Shown here: positions 4,266 to 54,112 of the stretch, piece by piece | Layout of the letters: every line of letters starts with the position of its first letter | Position numbering within the stretch: the first letter of the stretch is position 1 | The notes under the pieces: model-generated | Database searches by the model: none | What the model saw: only the letters and a program-made list of their open reading frames with translations | What the model was told of the DNA's origin: nothing | Program-made: the position numbers and the translations under genes | Source of the DNA: Psychrobacter vallis | Lineage (GTDB): Bacteria > Pseudomonadota > Gammaproteobacteria > Pseudomonadales > Moraxellaceae | Direction: 5' to 3' | NCBI RefSeq assembly: GCF_904846715.1 | Contig: NZ_CAJHBU010000009.1 | Coordinates: forward strand, 1-64,000 | Length of the DNA stretch: 64,000 bases

Positions 4266-4615
4266 CTTGTTGAGAAGCCGCTTTGTAAGAAGTCGCTTTG
4301 ATAATATAAGATAATGTAAAGACAGAGTCTAAACGTAGACCGTGTTAAGTTAGTCAAAAAAGCGTCTATCAGCTCTCAGTTGATAGACGCTTTTTTGTCT
4401 GACTCATTAGTGAGTAAAAATTCAAATGATTATCGTTTATCTTTCAATATGTTGGCGATTGTAAATTACATTAGGCAGCGCTTGAGTAACCAAGCAAACA
4501 CGTAACAAACAATTTCTAACATTCTCCCGCTATGGTTTTGGCTACCATATGCGTCATATGCTTAATGCATTATTAAGAATACATACATAAAAACGAATTT
4601 ACTTTGGAGAGACCC
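4266..4615. other. Intergenic region with tandem 15-mer and terminator
   Basis: Just after ygiQ there are two imperfect copies of a 15-base unit (AGAAGCCGCTTTGTA, AGAAGTCGCTTTGAT; 4273-4302). The ygiQ terminator follows. From 4400 to the ribosome site GGAGAG before 4616 I see nothing else I can name. Confidence 0.5.
4356..4397. terminator. Intrinsic terminator after ygiQ
   Basis: AAAAAAGCGTCTATCA pairs with TGATAGACGCTTTTTT around a nine-base loop, and the right arm ends in six T. It is a perfect stem of about 16 bp. Confidence 0.88.
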
Positions 4616-5029
4616 ATGAATACACTAACCAAAATTGTGACTGCCTTACCTGCCCTTGCCCTACTAAGCGCCTGTGCGACCACCGCGCCTACCACACCAA
4701 ATACTTCCGAAACGCCTGTCAAAGACAGCATGCCTGATGCAGCTTATGATCGTATGGCAGCAGCGCCTTATACTTGTACTGATGACAGCACCATCATGGC
4801 AAAACAATCTATTAATAAAAACCAAGCCATGGTGAATGCGACTTTGCCAAAAGTAAAATGGGCAGAACAAAAGATTGTCTTAAATGGCGGCGTGCAAGGT
4901 GATGTCGCAAGCTATGTCAACGACTCAAACCCAGAAGCGACCTATGCATGGCACATGAAAGGCGACAAAGGCATCTTTGCCATCAAATGGGCAAATGGTA
5001 AAGAATACCAAGTAAACTGCCAAATCTAA
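4616..5029 (+). CDS. Small lipoprotein, possibly MliC-like lysozyme inhibitor
   Basis: This is a 137-residue lipoprotein. A signal peptide ends in the lipobox LLSAC, with the lipidated Cys near residue 20, followed by a Thr/Pro-rich linker. The mature part starts YTCTDDSTI and closes with WANGKEYQVNCQI, giving two Cys at the ends of a beta-rich domain. That arrangement resembles the MliC/PliC lysozyme-inhibitor fold (Y-x-C at the start, a C near the end). The match is by pattern only, so a different small beta-barrel lipoprotein is possible. The frame extends to a TTG at 4604, but the ATG at 4616 follows GGAGAG directly and is the better start. A terminator follows at 5068. Confidence 0.7.
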   Translation: MNTLTKIVTALPALALLSACATTAPTTPNTSETPVKDSMPDAAYDRMAAAPYTCTDDSTIMAKQSINKNQAMVNATLPKVKWAEQKIVLNGGVQGDVASYVNDSNPEATYAWHMKGDKGIFAIKWANGKEYQVNCQI

Positions 5030-5067
5030 TTAGCCAAAAACAAAGAGTGGCAGTAGTAAGAATAAAT

Positions 5068-5100
5068 AAAAAACAGTCATCATCAGATGGCTGTTTTTTT
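5068..5100 (+). terminator. Intrinsic terminator
   Basis: AAAAAACAG(TC)ATC pairs with GATGGCTGTTTTTTT about 40 bases after the small lipoprotein gene. The T-tract lies on the plus strand. Confidence 0.8.
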
Positions 5101-5251
5101 GTGCGTGTTCATAGACGCTTTGGTACTTTTACCTAGAGAAGCGTCACGAAACCTGTCAAAATAGCGTTTATACATCGCAGTCCTCTACTTATTTTATAGG
5201 GGAGTGATGATATAGATATAGTATATGACCAATCACTCAGAGGATACATCG

Positions 5252-5794
5252 ATGGCTAAGCGTCTAATAAACATGATAGTAATTGCTACTACAAGTCTGT
5301 GGGCGCTGACAGGATGCGACAACGGTGCGGAGACTAGCAACCAAACCACTGAGCCCGCAGCCGCAACGGCAGCCCCCTCTGCATCGACTGCAGCCACAAA
5401 CACCATCGATTGGTCATTGGTCGCCAGTGGTGAGACGCCTGCTGACCGCGCCAGTTATCAGTATCCGTTTGCACTCGACAGTCAAAACGTTCGTGATTAT
5501 GCCGATTATTTCAAAGTGGATAATGCCACGGCTCAGCACAATCTCACTATCAGTATGGCCAGCAACGAGGCGCTATCAAAAGCCTTGGATCAGCTGAGTG
5601 AAACCTATGTCTCACATGAGGTAATCGATAGCAAGGACATGAAGCTTGTCATTCATACCACGCCCGATGTCGCTGCCAGTAGCTACGATTATGTGCTGTC
5701 TGATGACTTTGCTAAAGGACTGGTATTACCCATTGAAATCAAACCTGATGGTAAGAAAGGTGATGTGACGGCGCATGGAGAGATGGCGGAGTAG
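5252..5794 (+). CDS. Lipoprotein of unknown function
   Basis: This encodes a 180-residue lipoprotein. Residues 1-23 form a signal ending in the lipobox ALTGC. A low-complexity Ala/Thr/Ser linker follows to about residue 50, then a compact soluble domain ending LPIEIKPDGKKGDVTAHG. I do not recognise the domain. The ATG at 5252 has an AGAGGA ribosome site upstream; an in-frame ATG at 5225 lacks one. The last roughly 110 bases recur with one deleted base at 6903-7016, on the far side of the neighbouring convergent gene, so the locus has a history of duplication. Export to the inner or outer membrane is likely; the partner is unknown. Confidence 0.75.
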   Translation: MAKRLINMIVIATTSLWALTGCDNGAETSNQTTEPAAATAAPSASTAATNTIDWSLVASGETPADRASYQYPFALDSQNVRDYADYFKVDNATAQHNLTISMASNEALSKALDQLSETYVSHEVIDSKDMKLVIHTTPDVAASSYDYVLSDDFAKGLVLPIEIKPDGKKGDVTAHGEMAE

Positions 5795-44094: not shown

Positions 44095-45009
44095 TTACTC
44101 GGCAGGATTTTCTGGTGTCTTAGCATTAGTACTGGTCTCTGCCGCTGCGCTGCTCGCTGCAACCGCAAAATACTTTTGATTGATTTCATCATAAGTGCCA
44201 TTGGCTTTGATATTGGCTAACGACTGATTAATTTTCGCTTGTAACGCATCACCTGGGCGCACGGCAATGGCAAAATTATCATTGATATCAATCTCTTCGC
44301 CTTTGAGCGCATAATTACTGCCCGATGTCGTACCAAGCCACTCTAAAGCAGGCAGTTTGTCAGAGACCATCGCATCAACGCGCTCTGAACCCAAATCCAA
44401 GAACGCATTGCTCAACGTATCATAAAGCTTCATATCAGCTTTTGGATACGCCTTCTCAAGCCACTGCGAAGAGATGGTCGAGCGCTGGGCAGCAATAGAG
44501 TGTGAATCAATATCACTGCTATTGCTAGGATCAAAACTACTGTCTTTTTTGGCCAAAAACACCAAGGTATTGCTAAAGTAAGGCTCTGTAAAGCTGACTT
44601 GTTGCTCGCGTTCGGGTGTGACGGACATGGCTGCCACAATCGCATCATATTTGCCCGCTTTTAAACCCGGAATGATACCGTCCCAATCTTGCGCAGTGAT
44701 TTCACAAGTCATTTTCATGTCGGCACAGAGAGCGTTGGCGATATCCACATCGAAACCCCCAAGCGTGCCATCAGCATTGGTATAGTTGAAAGGTGCATAC
44801 GCCCCTTCAGTACCAATACGCAATACCTCGCCTGTCGCCGCTGTATCTTGAGTGGCTGTATCATTCGCATCATCCTGACCATTACTACAACCTGTCAACG
44901 CCAAAAGCATCGACACCGCCATGACAGGTACTGACAAACGGCGTGCCTTTGCCTCATTGCTGACTGAGTTTTTGGCGATTGTACGGTATTGGTCAAAAGG
45001 TTTGTTCAT
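44095..45009 (-). CDS. Polar amino acid-binding lipoprotein, third of three
   Basis: This 304-residue family-3 solute-binding protein has a signal whose lipobox is LALTGC (Cys near residue 41). The mature domain has the family motifs LRIGTEGAYAPFNYTNADGTLGGFDVDIANALC, DWDGIIPGLKAGKYDAIVAAMSVTPERE and AQRSTISSQWLEK. It closely parallels the two genes upstream in order and motif text, showing a tandem triplication with divergence. The C-terminus has a low-complexity Ala/Ser/Thr tail. Ligand is probably a basic amino acid or histidine, judged from the family and the LAO/HisJ-like text only. Confidence 0.9.
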   Translation of the reverse strand: MNKPFDQYRTIAKNSVSNEAKARRLSVPVMAVSMLLALTGCSNGQDDANDTATQDTAATGEVLRIGTEGAYAPFNYTNADGTLGGFDVDIANALCADMKMTCEITAQDWDGIIPGLKAGKYDAIVAAMSVTPEREQQVSFTEPYFSNTLVFLAKKDSSFDPSNSSDIDSHSIAAQRSTISSQWLEKAYPKADMKLYDTLSNAFLDLGSERVDAMVSDKLPALEWLGTTSGSNYALKGEEIDINDNFAIAVRPGDALQAKINQSLANIKANGTYDEINQKYFAVAASSAAAETSTNAKTPENPAE

Positions 45010-45093
45010 GATCGTCCTTGGTATTTACCCGTGAAAATAAAGCCCATCGCTTTGGTTAGGGCGTGTTGCTTGGATTGACCTTGTTACTTTAAT

Positions 45094-45126
45094 TAACAGC
45101 TATAGGCAAATATCCATAGCCGTTAA
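45094..45126. terminator. Hairpin between the second and third binding-protein genes
   Basis: TTAACAGCTATAGG pairs with CCATAGCCGTTAA around a seven-base loop. There is no T-tract, so it may be a processing or stability hairpin rather than a true terminator. Confidence 0.5.
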
Positions 45127-45156
45127 TCGCAGCATTTATAGCGCTAAGCTGCCATA

Positions 45157-46083
45157 TCAGTTTGTGGCGGCTTCTGTGGCGATGACAGCATCATCTTCAA
45201 CCACCATGACTTCTTTTAAGTCAGTGGTTGCCACGGCTTTCTGAGCGGCAGCCGTTGAGCTGGTACCAAAATAGCTGCCAGTGATTTGGTCATAAGTACC
45301 ATTGTCTTTTAGCTCAGCCAAAGCTTTGTTGAACTTGGCGACCAGTGGATCCCCTTTACGAAACGCAATACCCATCGCATCTTCGTCAGTGCTGATTTCT
45401 TGTCCTTTCACTTCGTAGTCTTTACCCGCTTCGGTTTTTAACCAATCAATACCGGTGACTTTGTCAGACATCATCGCTCGCACACGGCCTGACTTTAGAT
45501 CCAAATAGGCATTGTCTTGGGTGTCATACAGCTTGATATCTGCGTTGGCATGTTCATCTTGCAAATATTGTGAGGCGACGGTTGAGCGCTGTGAAGCAAC
45601 AGGCTGCCCTTCCAAGTCTCCTACACTAATATCATCGCCTTTTTTGCCGATCAAAATAATGCCGGTATGAAAATACGGATCAGTAAATTCAACCACTTCT
45701 TTACGCTCAGGCGTGATGGACATTCCAGCGATAATGGCATCGAATTTTTGCGCGTTCAGCCCTGGAATCAGACCATCCCAGTCTTGGGAAATGACTTCAC
45801 ATTCTGCCTGCATTTGCGCACATAACGCATCGACCAGCTCAATCTCGTAGCCAATCAATTTGCCATCAGCATCCGTATAACTGAAGGGTTTGTAGCTTGA
45901 TTCGGTGGCGATTTTTATGCTCGTCGGCGCATCGGTCGCGGTATCAGCCGCAGCGCTATCCGCTGGTGTTGAGCTATTGTTACAACCAGCCAGCATAAGC
46001 ATGGCGGCACTTAATGGCGCAAGCCAAAGTGTCTTGGTTTTTAGCATTTTGGTTTTGTGTGATGATGTCATGGATATTGTCAT
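45157..46083 (-). CDS. Polar amino acid-binding lipoprotein, second of three
   Basis: This 308-residue family-3 solute-binding protein has a signal ending in the lipobox LMLAGC. The mature domain shows IKIATESSYKPFSYTDADGKLIGYEIELVDALC, DWDGLIPGLNAQKFDAIIAGMSITPERKE and VASQRSTVASQYLQ. Its ligand-pocket text differs from the first and third copies (FTDPYFHTGIILIGKK), which suggests a different ligand preference. The start at 46083 follows GAGGGA by about nine bases; an ATG eight codons upstream overlaps that site. It begins 50 bases after the first copy's stop. The tail after about residue 270 is an Ala/Thr/Val-rich extension. Confidence 0.9.
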   Translation of the reverse strand: MTISMTSSHKTKMLKTKTLWLAPLSAAMLMLAGCNNSSTPADSAAADTATDAPTSIKIATESSYKPFSYTDADGKLIGYEIELVDALCAQMQAECEVISQDWDGLIPGLNAQKFDAIIAGMSITPERKEVVEFTDPYFHTGIILIGKKGDDISVGDLEGQPVASQRSTVASQYLQDEHANADIKLYDTQDNAYLDLKSGRVRAMMSDKVTGIDWLKTEAGKDYEVKGQEISTDEDAMGIAFRKGDPLVAKFNKALAELKDNGTYDQITGSYFGTSSTAAAQKAVATTDLKEVMVVEDDAVIATEAATN

Positions 46084-46133
46084 GTTTGCTATTCCCTCAT
46101 GTTGCAATCAGAAGATGATGAACCAATAGAAAG

Positions 46134-46931
46134 TTACTGACCAAAGTTCGCTTGCTCAAGACGTGCCAGCTCACCATTACTACGGATTTCGCTCAATGCT
46201 TTATTAAAATCGTCTCTCAGTGCATCACCCTTACGAACCGCAATGGCAATATTATCGTCATTGTCAATTTCATCACCAACGATACCAAAGCCTTCAGGGT
46301 TGTCTGCCAACCATGATTTGGCAGATACTTTTTCAGCCAATACCGCATCGCTACGACCAGACTTTAGATCCAAATACGCATTGTCGTAATTGTCATACAA
46401 CTGCACGGTATTGCCGTCTTTGCCTTCGTAATTGTCTTGTAGATAAGCGCCAGGCGTGGTTGAACGTTGTCCACCTAGTGTCAAGCCTTGAATCGCCATA
46501 GGATCAAATTTGCCATTTGTATCCGTCAGCCACACCATCGTGTTGGAGAAGTAAGGCTCGGTAAAATCGACCTTTTCTTGACGTTCAGGGGTGATCGACA
46601 TACCCGCCACAACCGCGTCATATTTTTGTGCCAATAGACCAGGGATAATGCCGTCCCAATCTTGGGCGACGATTTCACATTTGGCTTGCATCTGTTTACA
46701 TAAGGCATTGGCAACGTCGATATCGTAGCCTGCCAAACTGCCATCAGCATTGGTATAATTAAAAGGAGGGTAAGCGCCTTCGGTCGCGATACGAATGGTC
46801 TTGCCAGACGTCTCTGCTGCCGATGCATCCGCATTGGTATCGGTGGCGTCATTAGCAGGTTGACTGCAAGCACTTAGCATCAACGCGGCGGTAATGGTCA
46901 TTGATGACCACAATAGGCGAGAATTCGACAT
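46134..46931 (-). CDS. Polar amino acid-binding lipoprotein, first of three
   Basis: This 265-residue family-3 solute-binding protein has a signal with the lipobox LMLSAC. The mature domain has IRIATEGAYPPFNYTNADGSLAGYDIDVANALC, DWDGIIPGLLAQKYDAVVAGMSITPERQE, FTEPYFSNTMVWL and GGQRSTTPGAYLQ. It is closest in text to the third copy at the start and to the second copy in the middle. It lacks the long C-terminal tails of the other two. A candidate promoter lies about 135 bases upstream, so the binding proteins can be expressed without the ATPase gene. Confidence 0.9.
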   Translation of the reverse strand: MSNSRLLWSSMTITAALMLSACSQPANDATDTNADASAAETSGKTIRIATEGAYPPFNYTNADGSLAGYDIDVANALCKQMQAKCEIVAQDWDGIIPGLLAQKYDAVVAGMSITPERQEKVDFTEPYFSNTMVWLTDTNGKFDPMAIQGLTLGGQRSTTPGAYLQDNYEGKDGNTVQLYDNYDNAYLDLKSGRSDAVLAEKVSAKSWLADNPEGFGIVGDEIDNDDNIAIAVRKGDALRDDFNKALSEIRSNGELARLEQANFGQ

Positions 46932-47271
46932 CGTACATTCCTTAAATTCTGATGGGTTTTAATGTAGGGTTCTGATATGTTGTTCTCTGACGTTCCTGCC
47001 AGACAAGCACGATAGGTAGTAGGAGATACCAGCAGCCATCATTATCGGCCACCTGTAAGCATTCTGATAATACCTGAGTAAAATATCAAAAACAAACATT
47101 TTACATACCGACTGTCATTAAAGTGTAATAAACCGTCAGCTGTCATTATCGTGCAGTGGTTTCATTTTTTAGAGGATTTTAGAATGGCAAGCTTAGGATG
47201 GCAGAAATGTCACCATCCTAGATTTTTGCATAATGGCTATTTTTAAATAAGGATTGAATTGAGGGCACGCT
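46932..47271. other. Gap between ATPase and binding-protein genes
   Basis: The 340 bases hold a candidate promoter (47067-47095), a short perfect hairpin (TAGGATGG with CCATCCTA, about 47197-47220) that lacks a T-tract, and a MITE end at the ATPase side. I see no gene. Confidence 0.5.
47067..47095 (-). promoter_or_regulatory. Candidate sigma-70 promoter for the binding-protein genes
   Basis: On the minus strand TTGTTT is followed, after exactly 17 bases, by TATTAT. The pair lies about 136-164 bases before the start at 46931. It is a pattern match only. Confidence 0.45.
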
Positions 47272-47274
47272 CTA
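47236..47274 (-). mobile_element. Solo left end of the MITE/IS family at the ATPase stop
   Basis: Read on the minus strand from the CTAG junction, GAGCGTGCCCTCAATTCAAT and the next bases match the left end of the MITE at 12203 (GGGAGTGTCCTCAATTCAAT) with a few differences. The TAG of the junction is the stop codon of the ATPase gene. Confidence 0.6.
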
Positions 47275-48069
47275 GGTTTGACGATGCGACGCCATAAAGT
47301 CTTTGACACGCTCAGAGGTAGGATTGTCAAAGACCTGCTCAGGTGTACCGATTTCCTCAACCACACCTTGGTGTAAAAACACCACTTTACTCGATACTTC
47401 TCGGGCAAAGCGCATCTCATGGGTAACGATCAGCATGGTACGCCCTTCTTCTGCCAACTCACGCATGACTGCCAACACTTCATTAACCAGTTCAGGATCT
47501 AAAGCTGATGTTGGCTCATCAAACAATAACACCTGCGGCTGCATGGCAAGCGCACGGGCGATGGCCACACGTTGACGTTGACCGCCAGACAAGTTCGCTG
47601 GATAAGCGTCTTTCTTGTCCAGTAGACCTACTTTGTCTAGCAGTTTTTCAGCATCGCTAATGGCTTGGGCTTTTTTGATCTTGAGGACTTGCGTTGGCCC
47701 TTCAATGATATTTTGCAAAATCGTCTTATGCGGCCACAAGTTAAAGTTCTGGAATACGAATCCCACGCGGGCGCGCAAACTTTCTAGCTGCTTAACATCC
47801 GAGGCTTGCAACTCGCCTGACTTTGCAGGTTTTAGCATTAGCTCTTCATTGCCGATCAGGATACGACCTTGGTTCGGATTTTCGAGCAAATTAATGCAGC
47901 GTAGCAAGGTGGATTTGCCTGAGCCAGATGAACCCAAAATAGAGATCACATCGCCATCGTAAGCAGTGAGAGACACCCCTTTTAGCACTGCCAATGAGCC
48001 GTAGCTTTTATGGATGTCTTGTAAATCTAAGGCGATAGGCCGAGTCGGATTTTTTTCGATATCAAGCAT
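47272..48069 (-). CDS. Polar amino acid ABC transporter ATP-binding protein (ArtP/HisP type)
   Basis: This 265-residue ATPase has Walker [10 protein letters not shown], the Q-loop [12 protein letters not shown] (a HisP/ArtP/GlnQ form), the signature [12 protein letters not shown], Walker [15 protein letters not shown] and the H-loop IVTHEMRFA. It should energise the two permeases at 42150-43622, although three binding-protein genes and two gaps separate them. The stop TAG overlaps the junction of a repeat end, so the natural C-terminus may have been reset; the end [11 protein letters not shown] is normal for the family. The substrate is likely basic or polar amino acids. Confidence 0.92.
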
Positions 48070-49155: not shown

Positions 49156-50457
49156 ATGAGTCAATCGAATACCACAGACATCGTCGCCTATATGCAATCT
49201 GTCGGCAAACAAGCACGAGCAGCCTCGCGCGCGCTTGCCGCTGCCAATACGGGCGACAAAAATTCAGCGCTTATGGCGATTCATGAAGTATTAAAAAACG
49301 CCAAAAAAGCTATTTTGGCCGCCAATAAAATCGATATGGACAATGGTAAAAACAATGATTTGGATGCCGCCTTACTTGACCGTTTAGAGTTAAACGACGC
49401 GCGATTTGACGGTATGCTACAAGGTCTAAAAGACGTCGCTGCCCTGCCCGATCCTATTGGTGAAGTCACGGATATGACTTATCAGCCCTCTGGAATTCAT
49501 TTGGGTAAAATGCGTGTGCCACTTGGCGTGGTTGGTATGATTTATGAGTCGCGTCCTAACGTAACGTTAGAGGCCGCTTCATTGGCATTAAAATCAGGCA
49601 ACGCGATTATCTTGCGTGGCGGCTCTGAAGCATTTGAATCCAATCAAGCGATTGCCAAATGTATCTTAGAAGGTCTACAGAAAGTCGGTCTATCGGAGCA
49701 CAGCGTACAAGTACTACAAACGACCGATCGCGCTGCTGTTGGCGAGCTGATTACCATGACCAACTATGTCGACGTCATCGTGCCACGTGGCGGCAAAGGT
49801 CTCATTGAGCGTATCAGCCGTGATGCCCGCGTACCTGTGATTAAGCATTTAGATGGCAACTGCCACACCTTTATCGATAGCGATGCAGATGCTGACATCG
49901 CCATTAATGTTAGTGTCAATGCCAAAACCCATCGCTACGGCACTTGTAATACCATGGAAACGCTATTGGTCGATGAGACAGTCGCCAACGAGCTACTGCC
50001 AAAGATTGCTGAAGCGATCATAGCAGCTGATGATGCGATGCAATTGCGCCTTGATGAGCAGTCACAAACCATTTTAAATGACAATGCGATTCTTAAAGGC
50101 CATCTGTCTGCCGCAACTGCTGAGGACTGGGATACTGAATATCTAGCGCCTATCTTAGCGGTAAAAGTCGTCTCAGGCATCGATGAAGCGATTAACCATA
50201 TCAATACCCACGGCAGCCATCATACTGATGTCATCATTACTGACAACTATACTAAGTCTCAACGTTTCATCCGCGAAGTAGATTCAGCGAGCGTAATGAT
50301 TAATGCCTCTAGCCGTTTTGCCGATGGTTTTGAGTATGGGCTGGGTGCTGAGATTGGTATTTCGACTGACAAAATTCATGCCCGTGGCCCTGTTGGACTA
50401 GAAGGTCTTACCTCACAAAAATGGATCGTTTATGGTCATGGTGAGACACGCGCTTAA
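49156..50457 (+). CDS. proA: Gamma-glutamyl phosphate reductase
   Basis: ProA reduces glutamyl-5-phosphate with NADPH in proline synthesis. The 433-residue aldehyde-dehydrogenase-fold protein shows [44 protein letters not shown] and the Cys segment [15 protein letters not shown] with the catalytic Cys. The C-terminal [22 protein letters not shown] follows family order. The start has a clear ribosome site. It stands alone, without proB next to it, and ends at a strong terminator, so proline synthesis genes are scattered in this genome. Confidence 0.97.
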
Positions 50458-50606: not shown

Positions 50607-50630
50607 GGTCTCCTCACTGAGACCTTTTAT
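50607..50630 (+). promoter_or_regulatory. Terminator-like leader hairpin before the RNase fusion gene
   Basis: A perfect six-base stem, GGTCTC with GAGACC around CTCACT, is followed by TTTTAT and then, five bases later, the ribosome site AGGAAA of the gene at 50645. Its placement between the proA terminator and the start codon suggests attenuation or control of ribosome access, but a stem of six bases is short. Confidence 0.45.
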
Positions 50631-50644
50631 AGGAAACTGAGCCT

Positions 50645-51406
50645 ATGCAAAGTGGCAAGATTAAACGTTGGAACCAAGATAAAGGTTATGGCTTTATCGA
50701 TGTGGATAATCAGAGTGAAGATGTGTTTTTTCATGTGAGTAAAGTTCGCTTGTCGCAGCCCATTAGCGTTGGCCAAAAAGTCTACTTCAATAGTGAACGT
50801 AATGATAAAAATCAATTACGGGCAACCGAAGTTACTTCTAACACATTGAGTATTTTAGACACCTCAGTATCGGATCTCACACCTCACGATTCAAATACTA
50901 GCCGTCAAAATCACGCTAATAATAGACCATACCAGAGTCGTCGTGACCAGAACCATCAGCGCGGCGGCCATTATAAAAGAAGCGCCTTATCAACCTTATT
51001 CAGTCTAATAGCACTCATCGCTGTCGCGGTTTACTTTTTTGGTGATATAAACTCTGCTTTTTTTGCTGAAGATAATGCGCAAACCTCACTAACTCATTCT
51101 GCATCTGAAAACTCAAATCAAGCCGCAACTACCGGTATAACGAGTGATGCGCAAATAGATCACACTATTGCGCTTATTCAGCAAGGCGGGCCTTTCCCTT
51201 ATCCGCAAAAAGATGGCACGACCTTTTATAATCGCGAAGGCAGACTGCCAGCACAGTCGCAAGGCTACTACCGCGAATATACGGTTCCTACTGTTGGAGT
51301 GTCACATCGCGGCGCACGGCGTATTGTCACAGGTGGCCATCCACCAACCGTTTACTATCTGACCGTTGACCATTACGATAGCTTTAGCAGACTACAGGTA
51401 AAATAA
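50645..51406 (+). CDS. Cold-shock domain / transmembrane / RNase Sa-type fusion
   Basis: This 253-residue protein combines three parts. Residues 1-65 are a cold-shock domain with RNP1 KGYGFIDV (13-20) and RNP2 VFFHVS (27-32). A basic Asn/Gln/Arg linker runs to about 112, then a membrane helix (114-133). Residues about 168-253 match the guanyl-specific RNase Sa/T1/barnase superfamily: GGPFPYPQKDG, NREGRLP, YREYTV, GARRIVTGG and YLTVDHYDSF. They supply the catalytic Glu211, Arg225/226 and His243 in the expected order. Basic residues before the helix and acidic ones after it place the RNase outside the cytoplasm (inference). The next gene encodes a barstar. RNase Sa enzymes are normally secreted; tethering to a cold-shock domain is unusual. 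Catalytic competence is likely but unproven. Confidence 0.88.
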   Translation: MQSGKIKRWNQDKGYGFIDVDNQSEDVFFHVSKVRLSQPISVGQKVYFNSERNDKNQLRATEVTSNTLSILDTSVSDLTPHDSNTSRQNHANNRPYQSRRDQNHQRGGHYKRSALSTLFSLIALIAVAVYFFGDINSAFFAEDNAQTSLTHSASENSNQAATTGITSDAQIDHTIALIQQGGPFPYPQKDGTTFYNREGRLPAQSQGYYREYTVPTVGVSHRGARRIVTGGHPPTVYYLTVDHYDSFSRLQVK

Positions 51407-51407
51407 T

Positions 51408-51782
51408 ATGAACCAAGCCATCCACTATGTTAATCAAGACCACGTTAATCAAAATCACATTAACCAAAACGGTACACCACTAGCTGTGGCCATTCCTCCT
51501 CAGGCTGTTACCATACCCGCGGGCGACACACTCGACAAAACCGCGCTATTGACGAATCTTGCCCTTGCCTGTGATTTTCCCAGTTATTTTTCGTACAACT
51601 GGGACAGCGCATGGGACTGTCTAACCGATAGTGAGGTGGTACACCTAATGCTCGATTTGACGATGGTAAAGAAGATAAACACCGAAGACTTCAATATCTT
51701 TAAAAGCATTATTGAAGACGCCTATAGAGATTTTGGCAAACCACAATTGTGGATCATTGTGGCATCTGAAGGTAAAGCCTAG
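51408..51782 (+). CDS. Barstar-family ribonuclease inhibitor
   Basis: This encodes a 124-residue barstar-type protein, the cytoplasmic inhibitor of barnase-like RNases. The core text LALACDFPSYFSYNWDSAWDCLTD matches barstar, and its NWD-x2-WDCL places Asp66 and Asp70 at the sites that contact the RNase active site. The later strand KPQLWIIVA is also barstar-like. Residues 7-21 are a leader of three degenerate pentapeptides (VNQDH, VNQNH, INQN-), encoded by a 15-base tandem repeat at 51428-51470. The ATG lies one base after the RNase stop (TAA T ATG), so the two are coupled. Immunity to the upstream RNase is inferred from family and adjacency. Confidence 0.88.
   Translation: MNQAIHYVNQDHVNQNHINQNGTPLAVAIPPQAVTIPAGDTLDKTALLTNLALACDFPSYFSYNWDSAWDCLTDSEVVHLMLDLTMVKKINTEDFNIFKSIIEDAYRDFGKPQLWIIVASEGKA
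51428..51470 (+). repeat. 15-bp tandem repeat inside the barstar gene
   Basis: Three units, GTTAATCAAGACCAC, GTTAATCAAAATCAC and ATTAACCAAAACGGT, give VNQDH-VNQNH-INQNG. They lie in the extra N-terminal part that normal barstars lack. Confidence 0.75.
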
Positions 51783-51921: not shown

Positions 51922-53196
51922 ATGGAAATTACTTTAAATGGCTATTACACGCTGATATTGGCCACTTTAGTACTCTTACTTGGGCGTGTTTTGGTAAAAA
52001 AGATTAAATTCTTAGAAGACTTTAATATTCCAGAACCTGTGGCTGGGGGCTTGGTTGCAGCGATTGTGGTGTATGTTCTCAATATCGTTTGGGGGTATAG
52101 CTTTAACTTTCATCAAGGGTTGCAGACCGCGACCATGCTGATGTTCTTTGCTTCTATCGGTCTCAGTGCTGATTTTAGCCGCTTAAAAGCAGGTGGAACG
52201 CCGTTATTGATTTTTACCATCGTGGTGTCAGTATTTATTGTACTACAAGATATCGTTGGTGTAGCAATGGCAAGCGTACTGGGACTTGACCCCTTACTTG
52301 GACTAGTCACAGGCTCGATCGCACTAACTGGTGGTCATGGTACGGCAGGTGCTTGGGGTATTACCTTAGAGCAAGAATATGGTGTGGTGGGTGCGACGAC
52401 ATTGGGTATCGCAGTGGCCACTTATGGTTTGGTCGCTGGTGGTATCGTGGGTGGTCCGGTGGCACGTCGTTTGATTCAAAGACTTGGTCTAAAACCGACG
52501 CTTGCCAATCCCAACCCTAGTGATATCGAAAAAGTCGCTGGCGCTCAGTCGCTATATAGCACCAAGCATGATGAAGATTCAGCGCACAGCAATAAAGAAA
52601 TTTTTGAAAGACCTGATAGTATGCGTTTTATCACGGCTTCTTCTACGATTGAGACGTTAGCACTATTTGCAGCAGCGTTGGCTTTTGCCGATGTGATGAC
52701 GCTTGTGGCCCAAGATACATGGTTTGAGCTGCCTACCTTCGTTTGGGCATTGGCAGGTGGTGTCATCATTCGTAACGTCTTAACCACTGTGTTCAATTTT
52801 GATATGTTTGACCGCTCGATTGATGTGTTTGGTAACGCCTCTTTGAGTCTATTCTTGGCAATGGCATTGCTATCCTTGAAGCTATGGCAGCTGACTGATT
52901 TGGCAGGCCCTGTCTTGATTATCTTGCTGGTGCAGACCCTCATTATGATAATTTATGTCTACTTTATAACCTTTAAAGTCATGGGGAAAGACTACGATGC
53001 AGCGGTGCTGTCAGCAGGTCATTGTGGTTTTGGTATGGGTGCAACGCCAACGGCGATTGCCAATATGCAGGCGGTCACTGATCGTTATCTGCCCTCACCT
53101 AAAGCGTTTTTGATTGTACCGATGGTTGGTGCTTTTTTCGTTGATATCGTCAATGCTACGGTATTGCAGATATTTACCAAATTGCCGTTTATGTGA
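51922..53196 (+). CDS. gltS: Sodium/glutamate symporter GltS
   Basis: This 424-residue inner-membrane protein imports glutamate with sodium. It has about ten hydrophobic helices, and two inverted re-entrant glycine-rich segments characteristic of the family: ALTGGHGTAGAWG in the first half and AGHCGFGMGATPTAIANMQ in the second. The text IPEPVAGGLVAA near residue 35 is also typical. It adds a sodium-driven route to the ATP-driven glutamate/aspartate transporter at 32171-35539. Its stop codon at 53194-53196 is two bases before the target site of an IS630-type element, which therefore lies between the gene and the terminator at 54142. Confidence 0.96.
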   Translation: MEITLNGYYTLILATLVLLLGRVLVKKIKFLEDFNIPEPVAGGLVAAIVVYVLNIVWGYSFNFHQGLQTATMLMFFASIGLSADFSRLKAGGTPLLIFTIVVSVFIVLQDIVGVAMASVLGLDPLLGLVTGSIALTGGHGTAGAWGITLEQEYGVVGATTLGIAVATYGLVAGGIVGGPVARRLIQRLGLKPTLANPNPSDIEKVAGAQSLYSTKHDEDSAHSNKEIFERPDSMRFITASSTIETLALFAAALAFADVMTLVAQDTWFELPTFVWALAGGVIIRNVLTTVFNFDMFDRSIDVFGNASLSLFLAMALLSLKLWQLTDLAGPVLIILLVQTLIMIIYVYFITFKVMGKDYDAAVLSAGHCGFGMGATPTAIANMQAVTDRYLPSPKAFLIVPMVGAFFVDIVNATVLQIFTKLPFM

Positions 53197-53262: not shown

Positions 53263-53613
53263 ATGACTTACTCACTCGATTTTCGTAAACAAGTACTAAA
53301 AAGTTTAGATGAGGGTATGACCTTTGCCGAGGCGGCTGAGTTCTACAATCTGAGCCCAACCACTATACAGAACTGGAAGAGACGTGTTCACAGCAAAACA
53401 ACCAGACAAACCAAGCCTTATAAAATACCAGATCAGACACTACTTGATGACGTTAAAAACCATCCTGATGATTACCAGTATGAGCGAGCACGTCGTTTGA
53501 ACTGTAGCAAAACTGGTATTTACCACGCCCTAAAGCGTCTTGGCATCAGTCAAAAAAAAGACATTAGCGCATCCAAAAGCGTGTCCAATAAAAAGAGCGA
53601 CGTATCAGAGTAA
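53263..53613 (+). CDS. IS630 transposase N-terminal part (OrfA)
   Basis: This 116-residue frame holds the DNA-binding half: a helix-turn-helix in FRKQVLKSLDEGMTFAEAAEFYNLSPTTIQNWKRR and a second one around ARRLNCSKTGIYHALKRLGIS. Correct family text ends at LGISQKK, exactly at a run of eight A (53552-53559). After that the frame continues as DISASKSVSNKK and stops at 53611-53613, which no longer resembles IS630 proteins. The catalytic half is in the next frame. Expression of a full transposase would need a frameshift or transcript slippage at the A-tract. Confidence 0.85.
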   Translation: MTYSLDFRKQVLKSLDEGMTFAEAAEFYNLSPTTIQNWKRRVHSKTTRQTKPYKIPDQTLLDDVKNHPDDYQYERARRLNCSKTGIYHALKRLGISQKKDISASKSVSNKKSDVSE

Positions 53614-54112
53614 GCTTGATCGCTTCATACAGCGAGGCTATCCCATTGTGTATATGGACGAAAGCGGTTTTGAAAGCCAGACCATTCGTCCTCATGGTTA
53701 TGCACCGATTGGTAAGCCTTGTATTGATCGTTACAACTGGCAAGGTAAAAAGCGAACCAATGTTATCGGTGCTCTCTATGAAAAGATGCTGTTTGCGCTT
53801 GATTACTTTGAACACAACATTAATAGCGGCATATTCTATCACTGGTGCAAACACACGCTAATACCAAGTCTTAAAACCAAATGCGTTATTGTAATGGATA
53901 ACGCCAGATTTCATAAGAGCAAACGCATTCAAAAGCTACTGAACAGGCACGGGCATCGCATTCTTTGGTTACCACCTTATAGCCCTGACCTAAACCCTAT
54001 CGAGAAGAAATGGGCACAGGTGAAGTTTCTACGTCAAGGCTGGATGGAAAATGACTTATCCAAATTGTTTTATGATATTTGTCCTAGCTATAACACTTTT
54101 GTTTTGAACTGA
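53561..54112 (+). CDS. IS630 transposase catalytic part (OrfB)
   Basis: The second frame, open from before 53540, supplies the DDE domain: VYMDESGFESQTIRP with the first Asp, VIVMDNARFHKSKRI with the second, and LPPYSPDLNPIEKKWAQVK with the Glu. All three catalytic acids are present, so the domain appears intact. It has no convincing start codon or ribosome site of its own; I give the coordinate where family similarity resumes (TLAHPKACPIKRATYQSKLDRF) just after the A8 run. Removing one A (A7) would join the frames as SQKKTLAHPK. The C-terminus ends just inside the right terminal repeat. Confidence 0.82.
   Translation, partial: TLAHPKACPIKRATYQSKLDRFIQRGYPIVYMDESGFESQTIRPHGYAPIGKPCIDRYNWQGKKRTNVIGALYEKMLFALDYFEHNINSGIFYHWCKHTLIPSLKTKCVIVMDNARFHKSKRIQKLLNRHGHRILWLPPYSPDLNPIEKKWAQVKFLRQGWMENDLSKLFYDICPSYNTFVLN

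Follow-up and report, generated by a model that had tools for sequence, protein, structure and literature searches.

A single gene of Psychrobacter vallis joins a cold-shock domain (CSD), a hydrophobic segment and an RNase Sa-type domain, and a barstar gene follows it directly; since the same architecture recurs across Psychrobacter, it is not a chance join. Judging from the sequences of the pair and its relatives, we consider it rather probable that the first protein is an RNase tethered to the inner membrane and facing outward, with the barstar guarding the cytoplasm and a conserved CSD on the cytoplasmic side. The pair lies within the 64,000-nucleotide stretch of DNA analysed here (the window). 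Its features are listed below together with the two neighbouring genes that mark the conserved locus, which we take to be proA (upstream) and gltS (downstream); the kind of evidence is given in brackets.

50645-51406, + strand: ORF1, 253 aa, CSD, linker, hydrophobic segment and RNase Sa-type domain (ORF listing, Pfam)
50651-50836, + strand: CSD (PF00313), aa 3-64, with RNP1 KGYGFI and RNP2 VFFH (Pfam)
50984-51040, + strand: hydrophobic segment, aa 114-132, predicted single membrane anchor with basic residues N-terminal to it (hydropathy, charge bias)
51125-51394, + strand: RNase Sa-type domain (PF00545), aa 161-250 (Pfam, PDB match, fold)
51275-51277 (Glu211), 51308-51310 (Arg222), 51317-51322 (Arg225/226) and 51371-51373 (His243), + strand: RNase catalytic residues
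51408-51782, + strand: ORF2, barstar (PF01337), 124 aa, with Asp66 and Asp70 at contact positions (Pfam, alignment, fold)
49156-50457, + strand: upstream neighbour, gamma-glutamyl phosphate reductase
51922-53196, + strand: downstream neighbour, sodium/glutamate symporter

Domains of the gene pair

The first-pass annotation had described two open reading frames one base apart and had assigned their domains from the letters. Both frames were found (253 and 124 aa), with a single base between the stop of ORF1 and the ATG of ORF2, and the domain content was borne out, the CSD, Ribonuclease and Barstar models of Pfam each scoring above the curated cut-off. ORF1 has a whole-length match at 100% (rounded) in another genome of the genus (G124), and its RNase part has a 100% match in Psychrobacter aquaticus CMS 56 (locus L032). 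A terminator-like hairpin (50607-50624) lies immediately 5' of the ORF1 start. A self-regulating leader was considered and rejected: by eye, the hairpin is absent from the other folded leaders except that of the near-identical L032.

The C-terminal domain, taken earlier for a guanyl-specific RNase, scores 73.5 bits against PF00545 (cut-off 24), and ORF1 is the sole match to this family in the window's own genome. The nearest PDB sequence is RNase Sa3 (E 4.7e-22), and the AlphaFold2 model of this part matches the RNase Sa2/Sa3 fold (TM 0.83 by target, rmsd 1.1 and 86 columns against RNase Sa2, 1pyl). Glu211, Arg222, Arg225, Arg226 and His243 are kept in all 62 Psychrobacter loci and in all 18 loci from other genera, as is the N-x-E base-recognition stretch (Asn196/Glu198); the roles of these residues and their RNase Sa numbering are our assignment from general knowledge. 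The claim of an intact active site (Glu211, Arg225/226, His243) therewith stands, Arg222 being a further catalytic residue absent from the earlier list, and a check for frequent loss of catalytic residues among homologues gave none in 80 loci. We infer that the domain is a guanyl-preferring RNase of the RNase Sa type.

The CSD scores 49.5 bits against PF00313 (cut-off 27), and its AlphaFold2 model superposes on CspB (1hzb) with TM 0.82 and rmsd 2.2. It had been called canonical. RNP1 and RNP2 are indeed present: the RNP1 positions are kept in 56-57 of the 62 loci (5 gaps), the V/F/F/H positions of RNP2 in 56-58 (4 gaps), and the aromatic positions of both motifs are kept. The domain is nevertheless divergent, since position 8, which presumably corresponds to Trp in CspB, is Arg in the window protein (His in 53 and Arg in 2 of the 62 loci). 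CSD and RNase families both bind RNA, and nucleic-acid binding by the ORF1 CSD is predicted from family membership. Of the four further CSD proteins encoded in the genome, a CSD-DUF1294 protein gives the window CSD its best alignment score (118; the others 78-92), and a membrane protein of this type is possibly the donor of the domain; the score is a lead and not a tree.

ORF2 scores 40.9 bits against PF01337 over aa 34-110 (cut-off 23.4). It is divergent: the top PDB sequence match has E 0.096, NCBIfam gives no match, and Foldseek with the AlphaFold2 model returns nothing at E <=0.001, the best being 1.1e-3 (1bgs). In a second structure comparison 16 barstar rows head the list (barstar Z 9.9, rmsd 2.4, 85 aligned), and the next unrelated row has Z 7.6. 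All 51 aligned barstars carry Asp66 and Asp70, the equivalence of these residues coming from the PDB-match alignment; the barstar numbering and the contact roles of both positions are our assumption. The earlier identification of a barstar with both contact Asp residues is thus upheld, and by analogy ORF2 would inhibit the ORF1 RNase. A second short barstar-like frame, of 72 aa, was seen in the window's own genome (L112 1483-1701; G000:C34:3258-3437), where it sits among small ORFs resembling an orphan immunity array.

Distribution and origin of the fusion

We examined 80 of 97 relatives, 62 from Psychrobacter and 18 others. The fusion is uninterrupted in 57 of the 62 Psychrobacter loci; the remaining five are L051, with frameshifts in both genes, L053, at a contig end, and L076, L077 and L078, described below. 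Errors of assembly may account for some of these breaks. A suspected frameshift in G204 and G214 was rejected, the feature being in fact an in-frame shorter linker (G204; 231-aa loci L056 and L059).

An RNase of this family is present in 83 of 105 Psychrobacter genomes and absent from 22. Among the 83, the gene of G272 holds a run of N, and the RNase of G083 is a non-fusion in a 1469-codon frame. The latter frame (L123; G083:C1:3100500-3106500) is polymorphic-toxin-like, ends with the RNase and is followed by a weak barstar match of 21.5 bits, below the cut-off. At the family level 85 of 348 Moraxellaceae genomes match, namely the same 83 together with G029, where the RNase is stand-alone, and G1081, where the domain lies within a 2144-codon frame. 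The class sample gave matches in 15 of 369 genomes, and among the 14 loci beyond that of the window there is one CSD fusion (G446, from another family). The phylum sample gave matches in 35 of 398; phmmer detected no CSD in any of the 23 newly fetched phylum loci, 8 further matches without a locus standing outside this check. The order to which G446 belongs has 3 matches among 32 genomes. Two of these, G446 and G669, come from a single genus and carry fusions by Pfam; the third, G674, is without a CSD. In G674 (L163 1398-1782) the RNase-family domain ends a short frame, no barstar match was obtained in the fetched 3.3 kb, and the ORF behind the RNase frame resembles, to our eye, a SUKH-type immunity protein. 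Within the sampled genomes the fusion is therefore known from Psychrobacter and from a single genus outside its order; as the class and the phylum were sampled and relatives covered to the extent given above, it may be present elsewhere too.

In a tree of the RNase domain, which has few columns and a bootstrap that is not settled, all 19 rows of the fusion group fall into one clade (97/88) with one change. The group comprises 16 Psychrobacter rows (the CSD-less L078 included), G272, G446 and G669, and the tree further holds G029, the 18 other relatives and 13 picked class and phylum loci. The single clade is most simply read as the product of one fusion event and a later transfer between two orders; the CSD-anchor fusion probably arose once.

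Predicted membrane topology and proposed role of the pair

The first-pass annotation had placed the CSD inside and the RNase outside the cytoplasm, and this is supported as far as sequence allows. The hydrophobic segment, starting at aa 114, has a Kyte-Doolittle mean of 2.35 across 19 residues. It is the most hydrophobic segment of ORF1 and is preceded by 113 residues (CSD and linker), with no short N-terminal signal peptide; the linker between the CSD and the segment is basic, of low complexity, and rich in Ser, Asn, Arg, Thr, Gln, Lys and His. AlphaFold2 gives no helix at the segment (pLDDT block means 47 and 49). Net charge, counted as K+R minus D+E in the 15 residues on either side, falls across the segment in 60 of 60 proteins, from a mean of +3.95 in front of it to -2.23 behind it, and K+R alone falls likewise in 59; the set consists of 58 of the 62 Psychrobacter loci, the CSD-less L078 included, with G446 and G669 (loci L154 and L162). 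Under the positive-inside rule this bias predicts that the CSD is cytoplasmic and the RNase outside. A search for a cleavage site behind the membrane segment by the [AV]xA motif was set aside as uninformative, since its count (52 of 60) also catches residues within the segment.

The relatives, the gene order and two natural variants bear on the same question. In 15 of the 18 non-Psychrobacter relatives the most hydrophobic stretch starts within the first 22 residues and no CSD is present (in L097, L110 and L111 it starts later, under the start codon chosen here), and the stand-alone RNase of G029, from another Moraxellaceae genus, also begins with a signal-peptide-like stretch. In Psychrobacter celer (L078 4770-5610) the CSD and most of the linker have been lost in frame; a short N-terminus, the hydrophobic segment, the RNase and the barstar remain, with the RNase and barstar frames open. 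The CSD part is also interrupted in L076 (by a stop in the linker) and in L077 (by a frameshift), and there too both frames are open. At least one species (L078) can therefore do without the CSD.

The second variant is G669, whose fusion is uninterrupted and whose genome, estimated to be 100% complete, has no PF01337 match, nor is one found at the locus with a barstar profile. The first-pass annotation had asked whether a barstar always follows the fusion; the barstar frame is uninterrupted in 60 of 62 Psychrobacter loci, but no barstar was detected in this genome. In Psychrobacter the exceptions are L045 and L051, where the frame is split, and the frame of L073 reaches a contig end; a single base separates the barstar ATG from the end of the RNase gene in 59 of the 62, the others being L050, L091 and L092. 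The G669 fusion fits poorly with an RNase that acts in its own cytoplasm, although a divergent inhibitor may have been missed; under the export reading the missing barstar is expected, because the RNase would not be loose in the cytoplasm. Directly behind this fusion (L162; G669:C3:137831-138115), in the place of the barstar, lies a tRNA-Gly gene (1857-1930 of L162).

Finally, the RNase gene comes first in the pair, and this order fits outward-trafficked toxins, to which toxin-first gene order is tied by the authors of PMC3482391. Together, the charge bias, the RNase-first order, the signal-peptide-like relatives and the barstar-less G669 favour a cytoplasmic CSD and an exported RNase, and it is on these, with the P. 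celer form, that the proposal of an outward-facing tethered RNase with a cytoplasmic guard is based.

In this proposal an RNase Sa-type, guanyl-preferring enzyme would be made as a type II (N-in) inner-membrane protein. The CSD would fold and remain in the cytoplasm, the basic linker and one membrane helix would come next, and Sec would carry the RNase across to the periplasmic side, where it would remain tethered, or later be shed, and degrade RNA reaching the envelope. The barstar, made from the same message directly after, would neutralise RNase that fails to cross. The CSD-anchor piece would replace the signal-peptide-like stretch of other bacteria's secreted-RNase/barstar pairs; it may stem from a CSD-membrane protein like the CSD-DUF1294 family and would be kept by selection. 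As to what the CSD does, our guess is that it most likely binds nucleic acid at the inner face, its own mRNA or other single strands, and so adjusts the place or the time at which the enzyme is made or acts. A bolder form of the proposal, to which we assign a low probability, is a two-sided RNA device: the CSD would sense or bind single-stranded nucleic acid and would control how much RNase stands on the outer face or how active it is. Such a device would act via the membrane segment or through retention of the protein's own message at the membrane, and, if it exists, RNA degradation in the envelope would follow an intracellular RNA or cold signal.

Conservation by region speaks to whether the CSD matters at all. 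Mean pairwise identity among 58 proteins longer than 225 aa is 0.83 in the CSD, 0.32 and 0.44 in the two linkers, 0.75 in the hydrophobic segment and 0.86 in the RNase. The corresponding dN/dS values, from 152 pairs that share lineages and so are non-independent, are 0.072, 0.426 and 0.463, 0.077 and 0.080. These pairs were restricted to a whole-gene dS of 0.05-0.8 and drawn from 57 of the 62 loci (L051, L053, L076, L077 and L078 being broken, cut or CSD-less); the barstar core, from 56 of the 62 loci, gives 0.091. By both measures the CSD is therefore as constrained as the enzyme, and purifying selection on it is, by these estimates, as strong as on the RNase. An inert CSD, acquired when a scavenging RNase (secreted or anchored) had its signal peptide swapped in a chance fusion, would agree with L078, which keeps the rest without it, and with the open RNase and barstar frames of L076 and L077 behind a broken linker or CSD end. 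It would also agree with the commonness of stand-alone RNase/barstar neighbours: a barstar match was obtained at 13 of the 14 class loci (one being the G446 fusion) and at all 23 new phylum loci, two of them weak. Yet a dN/dS in the CSD as low as that of the RNase, far from the values of the linkers, together with its high identity and the kept RNP1 and RNP2, makes an inert domain in our estimate unlikely.

A toxin-antitoxin pair acting in its own cytoplasm, in which the CSD would bring the RNase to RNA and the barstar would restrain it until release under stress (cold, phage), would account for the barstar standing behind the RNase as one open frame in nearly all Psychrobacter loci. In the 22 Psychrobacter genomes that lack the RNase no PF01337 match was obtained, and strict co-occurrence of this kind within the genus would suit a toxin-antitoxin pair equally well. 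The gltS locus was obtained from 17 of these genomes, some of the stretches being too short to reach proA, and four (L126, L133, L138 and L140) hold a decayed barstar remnant upstream of gltS, a pattern that would arise if the RNase had to be lost before the barstar. Against such a pair, the charge bias places the RNase outside in all 60 proteins, the non-fusion relatives mostly start with a signal-peptide-like stretch, and the G669 fusion stands uninterrupted with no PF01337 match. Moreover, the RNase gene is first, and in most type II toxin-antitoxin pairs the toxin gene is not. We regard this arrangement as quite improbable.

The place of the pair in the genome is largely fixed. It lies between proA and gltS in 53 of the 62 loci; in L073 and L074 it is just behind gltS, and in the other 7 one or both neighbours were not found within the fetched stretch. 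L073 has a barstar remnant (2779-2917) between proA and gltS and an RNase/barstar pair (4542-5587) behind gltS, a displaced or duplicated pair. On the gltS tree as drawn, presence at the proA-gltS place changes 7 times, of which the well-supported branches alone force 2; the labels refer to this place only, G083 and G272, whose RNase is elsewhere, being scored as 'no'. Loss has therefore occurred, and its frequency is unsure. Plasmid records gave 26 matches in 72,556, none over 80% of the query, and among the 15 matches listed all start at residue 141 or later; 50,697 phage records gave no match to the fusion, and viral contigs no confirmed relative of it. The idea of mobile-element or phage cargo was accordingly dropped. 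Elsewhere in the window, an IS630-type transposase in two overlapping frames (HTH part, DDE part) lies just downstream of gltS (53263-54112), and three similar solute-binding protein genes (44095-48069, the middle one PF00497) stand in tandem, adjoining by eye an ABC-type ATPase gene.

A contact-dependent toxin, as the first-pass annotation had also suggested, or another interbacterial (polymorphic) toxin with the barstar as its immunity protein, could draw on the RNase at the end of the 1469-codon frame of G083 with its weak barstar and on the 2144-codon frame of G1081; barnase/barstar cassettes do occur in polymorphic toxins, as the section of PMC3482391 on these toxins describes. The window pair, however, has no delivery domain, only the CSD and Ribonuclease models passing the Pfam cut-offs in ORF1; its place is fixed, its RNase end is conserved rather than variable, and no fusion copy appears in the phage records or viral contigs, with the plasmid matches all partial. 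We consider a toxin of this kind very unlikely. The defence module that had been proposed alongside it is likewise less supported: PADLOC yields the CSD model CSD_V only (1.3e-9) and nothing for the barstar, and the retron Se72 effector of NCBIfam reaches 29.8 bits against a cut-off of 82, on the CSD part only. The toxin-antitoxin, polymorphic-toxin and defence readings are all less likely than a tethered, outward-facing RNase. Some other role, such as a membrane-bound RNA-processing or RNA-uptake enzyme with both domains on one RNA, would be compatible with two conserved domains that are RNA-binding by family knowledge and are predicted on opposite faces of one membrane, but nothing positive speaks for it and we hold it to be highly improbable.

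Relation to known systems

Secreted RNase/barstar pairs belong to the textbook proteins, yet what they do biologically is, in our judgement, poorly understood. A fusion carried by most Psychrobacter genomes, with an RNA-binding-type domain maintained by selection on the predicted cytoplasmic side, offers a genetic handle on this role. The fusion also bears on why CSDs attach to membrane proteins such as CSD-DUF1294, and its natural variants (P. celer without the CSD, G669 without a detectable barstar, and the Psychrobacter genomes without the RNase) make its role directly testable. Each part belongs to a known family; for the combination, a CSD fused to a barnase or RNase Sa-type enzyme, no description was found in the open-access (PMC) literature searched, for the most part by title and opening of the abstract. 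The nearest case found there is that of the CoCoNuT type IV restriction systems, which unite CSD-like OB folds and nuclease domains in one system. They differ in being GTPase-based and in having other nucleases, and the portion of PMC11090510 devoted to them mentions no barstar pair.

The Tox-Barnase/Imm-Barstar polymorphic toxins share with the window pair the RNase fold, the type of inhibitor and the toxin-first order, and the RNase/barstar pair as such is known and widely distributed, according to the account of these families in PMC3482391. In contrast to those toxins, the window pair is without a delivery domain and has a conserved RNase end and a fixed locus. The CSD-DUF1294 protein of the same genome (L118) also begins with a divergent CSD followed by a membrane part, but there this part is DUF1294 and, unlike in ORF1, no enzyme follows.

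The Streptomyces enzymes RNase Sa, Sa2 and Sa3 (PF00545) are alike to the ORF1 enzyme in profile, sequence, predicted fold and catalytic residues. RNase Sa is secreted free and contains a disulfide, whereas the window RNase shares its chain with a CSD and a hydrophobic segment; the window protein has no Cys and therefore no RNase Sa-type disulfide. Finally, in the RNase/barstar pairs of other bacteria the RNase also comes first, a barstar match lying near the RNase in 15 of the 18 non-Psychrobacter loci, some weakly (none for L097, L102 and L109). Those RNases carry a signal-peptide-like N-terminus where the Psychrobacter fusion has its CSD and predicted anchor.
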